This document shows, piece by piece, positions 15 through 16,155 of a DNA stretch of 64,000 nt (positions are counted from its first letter, which is position 1; each line of letters opens with the position of its first letter). A program made the translations under genes and the position numbers. Source of the DNA: Arthrobacter pullicola. GTDB taxonomy: Bacteria > Actinomycetota > Actinomycetes > Actinomycetales > Micrococcaceae. The stretch lies in NCBI RefSeq assembly GCF_014836875.1, contig NZ_JACSQC010000008.1, positions 62,001 through 126,000 of the forward strand. The letters run 5' to 3'. The notes under the pieces are model-generated. The model had not been told where the DNA came from and made no database searches. It was given only the letters and a program-made list of their open reading frames with translations.

Positions 15-88
15 GCCTCCGTAGCTCAGTAGGATAGAGCGGCCCTCTCCTAAAGGGCAGGTCGTCGGTTCGATTCCGGCCGGGGGCA
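15..88 (+). tRNA. tRNA-Arg (anticodon CCT)
   Basis: The cloverleaf closes with a 7-bp acceptor stem (GCCTCCG, 15-21, against CGGGGGC, 81-87, with one T-G pair) and discriminator A88. The D-arm reads AGCTCAGTAGGATAGAGC, and the T-arm carries the canonical GGTTCGATTCC core. The anticodon loop CTCCTAA sits on a CCCT/GGGC stem and gives anticodon CCT, which decodes the rare arginine codon AGG. No CCA is encoded; CT follows the discriminator. Confidence 0.95.
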
Positions 89-14042: not shown

Positions 14043-14061
14043 AGTTTTTGCCTCTCCCAAT

Positions 14062-14200
14062 GCCTACGAGGTGAGCTGTCGGATTCGGATGGGAGTCACC
14101 CGGTTGCTGGACTGCTAAGTCCGGCAACTTAACCCCTAGGGCTTCTTGCGAAACCCGAAATTGGTTCCCCCGCCTCTGCCATGCGATTTTGCGAACGGAT
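14062..14200 (-). promoter_or_regulatory. c-di-AMP riboswitch (ydaO type)
   Basis: On the minus strand the leader contains the conserved ydaO blocks in order: GGCAGAGGCGGGGGAACCAA, then GGGTTTCGC, then GGGTGACTCCC and ATCCGAATCCGACAGCTCAC, followed by CTCGTAGGC just before the ribosome binding site. These motifs and the position in front of a wall hydrolase match the RF00379 class, which senses cyclic di-AMP. The exact ends are estimated. A covariance-model search would confirm it. Confidence 0.85.
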
Positions 14201-14236
14201 CTCAAACGGTGGCAGAGCTCGGCGATCTGTTTGAGA

Positions 14237-14299
14237 GTGCCTGATCTTTGGCCAATCAGGCACGGTGACGAGAATATAACAACATCAAGGAAATGTCAC
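14237..14299 (-). promoter_or_regulatory. Predicted promoter and leader hairpin of the NlpC/P60 operon
   Basis: On the minus strand GTGACA (14294-14299) and TATATT (14273-14278), 15 bp apart, make a plausible promoter in an AT-rich pocket. Immediately downstream is a perfect 9-bp hairpin, GTGCCTGAT...ATCAGGCAC (14237-14263), at the very 5' end of the predicted transcript and before the riboswitch. It may protect the RNA end or bind a regulator. Confidence 0.5.
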
Positions 14300-14328
14300 G
14301 CTCAGGTCACGAAAGGATATTGGAGCGG

Positions 14329-15096
14329 TCACAACCAGCCGAGGGGGTCGACAGGAGTGCCGTTGACGAGTACCTCAAAATGCAGGTGGCAGCCCGTAGA
14401 AGCCCCCGTGGTGCCGCTGGCTCCCACCAGGTCACCGCGCTGGACTTCGTCGCCCACGGAGACGCTGATGGCCGACAGATGGTTGTAGGTGGTTTCCACC
14501 CCGTTGCCGTGGTCCACCACTACGCGGTTTCCCCCGCCGTAGGCATGCCAACCGGCGGACTTGACCTTGCCGCTGGCGGCCGCGGTTACCTGGGTGCCGC
14601 AGGCCGCGGCGAAGTCCTGGCCGGTGTGCAGTTCACCCGCCGCTCCCGTGATCGGGCTGACCCGGTAACCGAAGGATGAAGTCTGCACCAGTTCGGAGTC
14701 CAGCGGGGTCGCGAGCGTACCCTGTGCTGCTGCCGGAGTGACGTCCGCGCCGGCGACGGTTAGCCCCTGGAGCTTCGCGTCCGGATCGAACTTGCTGGTC
14801 AGAGCGGCCCGGTCAAACTCCAGGGTTGCATTGGGATCAGCCGAAACCGGAGCGGGAGCCGCGGTGGCTTCCGGTGCCGGTACGGGATCTACGGCCGCTG
14901 CTGTCGTCGGCAGTGCCACGGTCAGCACCAGCCCGGAGGCGGCGGCCGTGATGGCGAATTTCTGGGCGGATCCCCCCAGCGGGCGGCGGACAGTTTCAGC
15001 GCGTCGCCGGCCAGTAGTCCCGGCGGCGGCACGTGGACGCAGTTGGGTGGCCGTGGTTTCGGCCCTGCGCCTGCCCGAAGCAGTGTGCTTCGACAA
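14329..15096 (-). CDS. Exported M23-family metallopeptidase
   Basis: 255 residues. The N-terminus is basic, then comes an export segment (about 45-68, KFAITAAASGLVLTV) that resembles those of the two downstream NlpC/P60 proteins. The C-terminal LytM/M23 domain has the zinc and catalytic residues H157 and D161 (LHTGQDF), H206 (YNHLS) and HLHFE (H237, H239). M23 enzymes cut peptidoglycan cross-bridges. The start is TTG at 15096 with GAGAGGG 6 nt upstream. A second c-di-AMP riboswitch precedes it. The predicted NlpC promoter lies downstream of this gene's stop, so the genes are separate units under the same signal. Confidence 0.9.
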   Translation of the reverse strand: MSKHTASGRRRAETTATQLRPRAAAGTTGRRRAETVRRPLGGSAQKFAITAAASGLVLTVALPTTAAAVDPVPAPEATAAPAPVSADPNATLEFDRAALTSKFDPDAKLQGLTVAGADVTPAAAQGTLATPLDSELVQTSSFGYRVSPITGAAGELHTGQDFAAACGTQVTAAASGKVKSAGWHAYGGGNRVVVDHGNGVETTYNHLSAISVSVGDEVQRGDLVGASGTTGASTGCHLHFEVLVNGTPVDPLGWL

Positions 15097-15107
15097 GTGG
15101 TTCCCTC

Positions 15108-15285
15108 TCTACAAAGCCTGCGAAGTTAGCTGTCGGATTCGAGTAGAGAACTCGGCCCACGACGCACTGGCCTACCGCTGTGCGGATATTCCTGTGCTGC
15201 TCGGAGGCTTCACCCCAAGACAGTGCTGCCACTGCCGCTTGATGGGTCCTCCGCCCCTGCCCGCGAACGGTTACACCTGCGGTCC
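15108..15285 (-). promoter_or_regulatory. Second c-di-AMP riboswitch (ydaO type)
   Basis: The leader of the M23 gene holds the ydaO blocks GGAGGACCCATC, TTGGGGTGAAGCC, CGAATCCGACAGCTAACTTC and GCAGGC in order. The CCGACAGCTAAC core matches the consensus better than the first copy does. Two riboswitches of one class lie 0.9 kb apart in front of wall hydrolases. Ends are estimated. Confidence 0.85.
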
Positions 15286-15342
15286 AGTGGCAGGGTTCGG
15301 CTGTCGGACCGGTGATCAGTGTTGTTGCTGTAGTCAGAAGTC

Positions 15343-15348
15343 ACTATA
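15343..15348 (-). promoter_or_regulatory. -10 element of the M23 / riboswitch transcript
   Basis: On the minus strand TATAGT lies in an AT-rich stretch (GGGATTTTTCCCCTATAGTG) about 60 nt before the riboswitch core. The -35 is poor. The remainder of 15286-15447 holds no gene; a small GC hairpin near 15430 may end the dtxR transcript. Confidence 0.45.
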
Positions 15349-15447: not shown

Positions 15448-16155
15448 TCAGGCCGGGAGAGCCTGACCGGTGACGAAAACGTGTGCGGCCACTTCGGTGG
15501 GCAGTTCCAAGGCGCCCTCAATTCCGGGAACGCGGACTGAGATGTAGCCTCCGACGACCTCTGCGGTAATGGAGGCCCCAGGACGCAGCCCGGCCTCATC
15601 CAGCTGTGCCAGCAGCTCGGGGTCCACCTGGATCGGTTCGGCCAGCCGAAGCAGGTTCATCTCTGTCCCGGGGGCGGCCGCGCTGACGGCTGAGACCAGG
15701 TCCATATAGCCGCCGGCAGGAGCCAGGGATGTTGTTCCGCCCAGTGCCTCCAGGCCCGGGATGGGATTGCCGTACGGCGACTCCGTGGGGCGCCCCAGCA
15801 GGTCATAGAGCCGGCGTTCGACGCGTTCGCTCATCACATGCTCCCAGCGGCACGCTTCATCGTGGACGTAGGCCCAGTCCAGTCCGATCACGTCGGCCAG
15901 CAGCCGCTCGGCAAGACGGTGTTTACGCATTACCTCCGTGGCGCGGCGCCGGCCCAGTTCGGTCAGTTCCAGCTGCCGGGTACCCGACACCACAACCAGC
16001 CCGTCGCGTTCCATCCGCCCAATGGTCTGGGAGACCGTCGGACCGGAATGGCGCAGGCGCTCGGCGATCCGGGCGCGCAGGGCCACAATGTTCTCCTCCT
16101 CGAGCTCAAGGATGGTTCGAAGATACATCTCAGTTGTGTCGATGAGGTCCGTCAT
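15448..16155 (-). CDS. DtxR/IdeR-family metal-dependent transcriptional repressor
   Basis: 235 residues. A winged helix-turn-helix occupies residues 1-65 (SGPTVSQTIGRMERDGL is the recognition region). The metal-binding and dimerisation domain has the DtxR ligands H79, E83, H98, C102, E105 and H106 in HRLAERLL...VHDEACRWEHVMS, the iron-type arrangement with cysteine. A C-terminal SH3-like domain covers about 145-230. It would repress iron uptake genes when Fe(II) is plentiful; a siderophore-interacting reductase at 32814 is a possible regulon member. The start has AGGAG 9 nt upstream. An MntR-like role is less likely given C102. Confidence 0.93.
   Translation of the reverse strand: MTDLIDTTEMYLRTILELEEENIVALRARIAERLRHSGPTVSQTIGRMERDGLVVVSGTRQLELTELGRRRATEVMRKHRLAERLLADVIGLDWAYVHDEACRWEHVMSERVERRLYDLLGRPTESPYGNPIPGLEALGGTTSLAPAGGYMDLVSAVSAAAPGTEMNLLRLAEPIQVDPELLAQLDEAGLRPGASITAEVVGGYISVRVPGIEGALELPTEVAAHVFVTGQALPA

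Follow-up and report, generated by a model that had tools for sequence, protein, structure and literature searches.

We analysed a window of 64,000 nucleotides (the whole stretch of Arthrobacter pullicola DNA presented here) in which three genes for cell-wall hydrolases lie close together on the reverse strand. The first of them, at 15096-14329 (-), encodes an M23 metallopeptidase of 255 amino acids with a signal peptide (Pfam PF01551, E 3.6e-32; start codon TTG at 15096-15094). It is followed by two genes for NlpC/P60 proteins, namely protein 1 at 14042-13245 (-), with 265 amino acids counted from a GTG start at 14042-14040 (PF00877, E 4.1e-6; the open reading frame as listed opens further upstream, at 14060), and protein 2 at 13216-12452 (-), with 254 amino acids (PF00877, E 9.6e-10). 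The gene for protein 2 begins 28 nt behind that for protein 1 with its own ribosome site (CGGAG) and without a riboswitch of its own, and an intrinsic-terminator-like site with a 14-bp stem follows it at 12423-12392 (-). These domain assignments agree with an initial annotation of the DNA, which had placed wall hydrolases behind two regulatory leaders. On its upstream side the hydrolase cluster is adjoined by a gene for a DtxR-like iron-dependent repressor with a FeoA domain (15448-16155 (-)). By a single scan with the M23 protein, the closest named relative is Arthrobacter gallicola (94% identity).

To characterise the leaders, we searched the window with cmscan against Rfam 15 at gathering thresholds and obtained three matches: one tRNA gene at the start of the window (15-88 (+)) and two matches to RF00379, the ydaO/yuaA leader (cut-off 38 bits). 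Specifically, a c-di-AMP riboswitch aptamer of the M23 gene was found at 15312-15100 (-) with 66.6 bits (E 3e-13), and one of the first NlpC/P60 gene at 14203-14047 (-) with 56.1 bits (E 2.6e-10), both covering the model end to end (1-134). The initial annotation had proposed two ydaO-type leaders and a covariance search with RF00379 as a check on them, and both leaders are borne out by that search; its range of 14062-15348 stops short of the 3' end of the second aptamer and omits both NlpC/P60 genes. Elsewhere in the A. pullicola genome (3.62 Mb, 15 contigs) there is one more RF00379 match, which precedes a protein that has a LysM-like part and ends in an NlpC/P60-like one (both recognised by eye, and the NlpC/P60-like protein also by a match to the export module described below). 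Given that every searched genome of the genus (29, A. pullicola included) has three RF00379 matches above the cut-off, chance can be ruled out for the window aptamers. The feature is real and conserved, and the leaders are c-di-AMP riboswitches of an already known class; judged from their sequence, they would bind c-di-AMP.

In both leaders the end of the aptamer coincides with the ribosome site. The tail of the M23 aptamer, AGAGAGG (15110-15104 (-)), is a Shine-Dalgarno sequence from which the TTG start codon is 7 nt away, and the tail of the NlpC aptamer, GGGAGAGG (14058-14051 (-)), is a Shine-Dalgarno sequence with the GTG start 8 nt later. Each aptamer additionally contains a hairpin loop that can pair with its tail to form a pseudoknot: UCUCU (15149-15145 (-)) with AGAGA in the M23 leader, and CUCCC (14095-14091 (-)) with GGGAG in the NlpC leader. 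The predicted pseudoknot helix overlaps the Shine-Dalgarno sequence only in part. We sought terminator-like sites between the window aptamers and the start codons and found none. Compared with the RF00379 ydaO/yuaA leader, the window leaders thus share the whole model, the conserved core, the GAGAGG tail and a wall hydrolase downstream, but differ in that the tail serves as the ribosome site, with the start codon 7-8 nt on and no terminator-like site. Both therefore have the layout of the translational type, i.e., a tail that is the Shine-Dalgarno sequence near the start codon, without a terminator.

The textbook mode of ydaO in Bacillus subtilis is premature transcription termination, and attenuation of this kind would switch both NlpC/P60 genes at once. 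We consider this improbable for the window leaders, because there is no terminator-like site from the aptamers to the start codons and the Shine-Dalgarno sequences lie merely 7-8 nt from the start. Besides the Bacillus precedent, the termination mode is favoured by a Streptomyces coelicolor riboswitch which, as recounted in extracts of PMC9960051, had a transcript-level effect and terminated transcripts in vitro. The same extracts describe the nlpC riboswitch of Corynebacterium glutamicum, which is repressed by c-di-AMP, most likely at the level of translation according to reporters, which in a test operon acted on the first gene only, and for which a CTCC:GGAG pseudoknot was suggested as a theory. 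As far as those extracts go, the window resembles this system in that a ydaO-type aptamer stands in front of an NlpC/P60 gene, a canonical terminator is missing and a pseudoknot between loop and ribosome-binding site is proposed. A. pullicola differs from C. glutamicum in that its genome has three units, of which one encodes an M23 peptidase, and in a tandem NlpC/P60 paralogue without an aptamer. Since the window layout fits the translational type of C. glutamicum, we infer that the M23 and first NlpC/P60 genes are turned off by c-di-AMP. The second NlpC/P60 gene is probably co-transcribed but not directly switched, because it has its own ribosome site and because the C. glutamicum riboswitch acted on the first gene only (PMC9960051, extracts). 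The earlier proposal that two riboswitches control three enzymes is therefore kept for the M23 and first NlpC/P60 genes, but direct control probably does not extend to the third.

The pairing of loop and tail was further assessed in 80 distinct combinations of the two elements. Own partners had a mean pairing score of 11.44, compared with 10.56 for shuffled partners (sd 0.11; highest of 200 shuffles 10.89), a difference that is uncorrected for kinship, as the partner shuffle leaves relatedness in; letter-shuffled loops scored 9.50. Helices of only 2-3 pairs were seen in 11 of the 80 combinations. Dropped from this set were one leader without a recognised hairpin, the leader of locus L142 (without a ribosome site) and leaders that misfitted the extraction rule before the core.

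We then considered how widely the arrangement is conserved. Of 197 genomes sampled across the family, 157 have at least one RF00379 match; these represent 26 of 32 genera. From the matches we assembled 168 distinct aptamer cores, 81 of them from the genus (A. pullicola included) and 87 from the wider family, for which only part of the matches was fetched. An open reading frame of at least 80 amino acids starts 4-11 nt after the tail Shine-Dalgarno sequence in 157 of the 168 cores; of the remaining 11, ten have both a Shine-Dalgarno sequence and a start codon in their tail, these cores being situated no more than 400 nt from where the fetched locus ends, and the L142 core at position 652 has no Shine-Dalgarno site in the expected place. 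The 87 wider-family cores yielded 65 complete downstream proteins, with 11 more cut by locus ends and 11 without an assigned start. Among the 65, Pfam detected NlpC/P60 in 27, M23 in 24, CHAP in 10, LysM in 5 and C92 in 1 (overlapping counts), and the riboswitch is therefore tied to wall hydrolases in the family. These results would extend the translational c-di-AMP riboswitch described for Corynebacterium to a whole family. One variant was observed in a relative, at locus L122, where three aptamer cores stand in a row (at 765, 1830 and 2992) and where, unlike in the window, the second NlpC-type gene with the export module has its own riboswitch.

Upstream of the aptamers, we examined the promoters for MtrA-type sites. 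The NlpC unit has an MtrA-type box, GTGACCTGAGCGTGAC, at 14310-14295 (-), about 90 nt from the aptamer and with all 8 specified bases; its second half overlaps a -35-like GTGACA (14299-14294), with 17 nt to a -10-like TATTCT (14276-14271). The window stretch GTGACC-TGAGC-GTGAC, a predicted MtrA site, fits the consensus GtnAcC-n5-GTnAcn given for Streptomyces MtrA sites in extracts of PMC5650626 and PMC13189361, and an MtrA gene is present in the A. pullicola genome (394 bits, cut-off 300). In a further likeness, C. glutamicum nlpC is published as an MtrA target (PMC9960051 and PMC3353115, both in extracts). The M23 leader has a degenerate box with 6 of the 8 bases at 15381-15366 (-), 17 nt before a -10-like TATAGT at 15348-15343; this box is weak by itself, because 6 of 8 is also attained by 92 of 168 reversed controls. 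Among the M23-type leaders of the genus, 16 of 28 have a box with 7 or 8 of the 8 bases. No convincing MtrA-type box was seen at the third A. pullicola unit.

Across the whole set, the direct repeat GTnAC-N6-GTnAC recurs upstream of the aptamers, the best match having all 8 bases in 70 of the 168 promoters, 7 in 70 and 6 in 28. At least 7 bases were matched in 140 of 168 promoters, compared with 10 of 168 reversed controls (8 bases in none, 7 in 10, 6 in 92 and 5 in the rest); the 168 letter-shuffled controls reached 8 bases in none, 7 in 7 and 6 in 61, the rest being lower. As a single genus (A. pullicola included) supplies 81 of the 168 promoters, these are not independent; in the wider family all 8 bases are present in 36 of 87 promoters and at least 7 in 78 of 87. 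MtrA is a candidate regulator of the hydrolase promoters, through a box that is exact for the NlpC unit and degenerate for the M23 unit. The layout across the family is consistent: an MtrA-type promoter, an aptamer with a built-in ribosome site and an exported wall hydrolase. Between promoter and NlpC aptamer there is also a hairpin, GCCTGATTGGCCAAAGATCAGGC (14261-14239 (-)), and inverted repeats resembling it were seen by eye after the box in several relatives.

All three enzymes of the window had been described as sharing a similar AAASGLVL export module. This wording is literal for the M23 protein and NlpC/P60 protein 2, but NlpC/P60 protein 1 reads VAASGLVL. Judging by its composition, the stretch is the hydrophobic part of a predicted signal peptide with a charged GRHRA or RRRA start. 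We built a profile (A1) from 12 such N-termini and located the module at 15093-14896 (-) in the M23 protein (RRRA ... AAASGLVL, E 9.2e-17), at 14036-13872 (-) in NlpC/P60 protein 1 (GRHRA ... VAASGLVL, E 6e-24) and at 13216-13043 (-) in NlpC/P60 protein 2 (ARHRA ... AAASGLVL, E 1.7e-24). Four A. pullicola proteins match with E < 1e-16 (next best 0.39), values that are inflated because the profile contains these four proteins. Three of the four are encoded immediately after a riboswitch, NlpC/P60 protein 2 being the exception. Searching for the GRHRA motif with a DNA pattern was of no use, as it gave 240 matches in the A. pullicola genome and 184 for the reversed pattern.

The module was present in 159 of 197 sampled family genomes. 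In the sample, the genera here numbered g2, g4, g13, g17 and g22 have modules but no RF00379 match; the reverse holds for the listed genomes of g3 and g6, in which RF00379 is present and the module is not matched. The link between module and riboswitch is loose, not strict; what stands of the earlier claim is the common signal peptide. The shared stretch could simply be an ordinary signal peptide kept in paralogues that says nothing about co-regulation, and we regard the evidence on this as evenly balanced. Its charged, hydrophobic and A-x-A parts (recognised by eye) are those of any signal peptide, and module and riboswitch occur without each other in the genera just named. Against this, only those four A. 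pullicola proteins match the profile, three of them encoded right after a riboswitch, and the proteins that share the stretch belong to different enzyme families, M23 and NlpC/P60.

The occurrence of the enzyme that makes c-di-AMP bears on the ligand. The A. pullicola genome encodes one DAC domain (PF02457, 90.8 bits, cut-off 27), i.e., a predicted c-di-AMP synthase. All 8 genomes examined from eight riboswitch-bearing genera have the domain, and none of the 31 examined from six genera without the riboswitch has it (g2, 1; g4, 7; g13, 9; g15, 6; g17, 1; g22, 7; counts of genomes, not of independent losses). Given that synthase and riboswitch are absent together, c-di-AMP is supported as the ligand in the family, and their joint absence serves as natural evidence for it.

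Considering all of this, we think it very likely that the M23 gene and its neighbour, the NlpC/P60 pair, make up two of the three units of a c-di-AMP regulon for exported wall hydrolases, with an MtrA box at the promoter and a translational OFF switch in the leader. The transcript of the NlpC unit would probably start at the promoter whose -35 element is overlapped by the MtrA box, and would open with a ydaO-type aptamer ending in the Shine-Dalgarno sequence. At high c-di-AMP, the folded aptamer and its loop:tail pseudoknot would hold this sequence, so that translation of the first gene drops; at low c-di-AMP, ribosomes would load, and the hydrolase would be made and exported via the shared signal peptide. 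NlpC/P60 protein 2 would probably be made from the same transcript without being switched directly.

In five of the six genera without the riboswitch, an MtrA-type box is retained upstream of the NlpC gene, which has another conserved leader. We surveyed 16 module genes in ten genomes of g2, g4, g13, g17 and g22; all 8 of those scanned encode NlpC/P60 proteins, and each of the 15 promoters inspected by script or by eye (all 16 but that of L310) has a box with 7 or 8 of the 8 bases. The leaders are not RF00379 and had no Rfam match at E values up to 1, and the Rfam matches elsewhere in these loci were one tRNA and one chance miRNA match. The leaders fall into two types, B and C. Our tentative reading is that these may be two undescribed RNA regulators, possibly riboswitches with a changed signal, occupying a position where a wall hydrolase has to be controlled by RNA. 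Such replacement leaders make it testable what becomes of a riboswitch once its ligand disappears. We found no open-licence paper joining 'c-di-AMP riboswitch' and 'Arthrobacter', and the titles and abstract starts of the open-licence matches listed contained neither an Arthrobacter c-di-AMP riboswitch nor a substitute leader in cyclase-less relatives.

Type B leaders (L295-L300, L304, L319-L336) lie upstream of the NlpC/P60 gene in g2, g4, g17 and g22. They have a stem that takes forms such as CCCCCGC:GCGGGGG, ACUCCGC:GCGGAGU and GCCCCGU:ACGGGGC, with conserved GCAGU and UCAUG or UCGUG stretches inside it, and a tail, GAGAGAGG, that is the ribosome site. Using 7 sequences to construct a model, we found type B in 18 of 395 family genomes (the source genomes of the model being 7 of the 18), at one place each and all in these four genera; the model had no match in the A. 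pullicola genome, and the 16 of these 18 genomes that were examined for a DAC domain all lacked it. A class-wide search gave 0 of 394 genomes, from a set that held no known carrier and is hence uninformative. In 18 sequences all 126 of 126 cells of the stem are paired, in an alignment that was fitted to the tested stem, compared with 42-66% in slid controls, and 19 cells in 3 of the 7 pairs change on both sides. The covariation score was 0.349, compared with 0.130 after shuffling (reached by 0 of 500), and the number of pairs with two-sided change was equalled by 10 of 500 shuffles; the 4 further pair types were not above shuffles (4.6), and 4 of the 7 pairs never vary. As part of the tentative reading above, type B may be an RNA distinct from the c-di-AMP riboswitch, with a covarying stem. 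Type B and C leaders may possibly instead be relics kept by promoter and ribosome site alone, a reading that the compensatory base changes of the type B stem argue against.

That type B descends from the c-di-AMP riboswitch is unsupported: in alignments of 9 of the 18 sequences with 34 of 100 NlpC-type and 23 of 68 M23-type aptamers (the targets used for both types), z ranged from -1.2 to 1.7 for the former and from -1.9 or lower to 0.3 for the latter, and the likeness was confined to the tail and the gene start. On visual inspection an H-type pseudoknot X:X' around the stem seemed convincing, but it failed a cross-partner test, with own and foreign partners at -10.6 and -10.5 kcal/mol in g2, -13.1 and -13.8 in g4, and -23.2 and -11.6 in g17 (16 of the 18 sequences, without L332 and L333).

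Type C leaders (L301-L303, L305-L310), which belong to g13, also lie upstream of NlpC/P60 genes, with four copies in one g13 genome. They have a longer predicted fold, in which 4 of 39 pairs show two-sided change (9 sequences). Over its full length, a type C model weakly matches the window NlpC aptamer (14217-14048, E 0.074) and the third-unit aptamer (E 0.088), but also an unrelated place in the window (17388-17260, E 0.079), and has no match to the M23 aptamer. In alignments against the same targets, all 9 type C sequences gave z of 1.6-8.0 with NlpC-type and 3.0-6.2 with M23-type aptamers, the observed score being reached by 0 to 4 of 60 shuffles. A sequence profile of the NlpC-type aptamers recognises the 5' part of the type C leader in 7 of the 9 loci (E 0.012-0.86; best reversed control 3.1), and local alignments show this part, CUGCCGCUG..CCGG...GUUC...GGCAGGG.GCGGGG, to be shared with NlpC-type aptamers. 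On these alignments, type C has the look of a c-di-AMP riboswitch that was remodelled, in that it would have kept its 5' half and rebuilt the ligand-binding 3' half.
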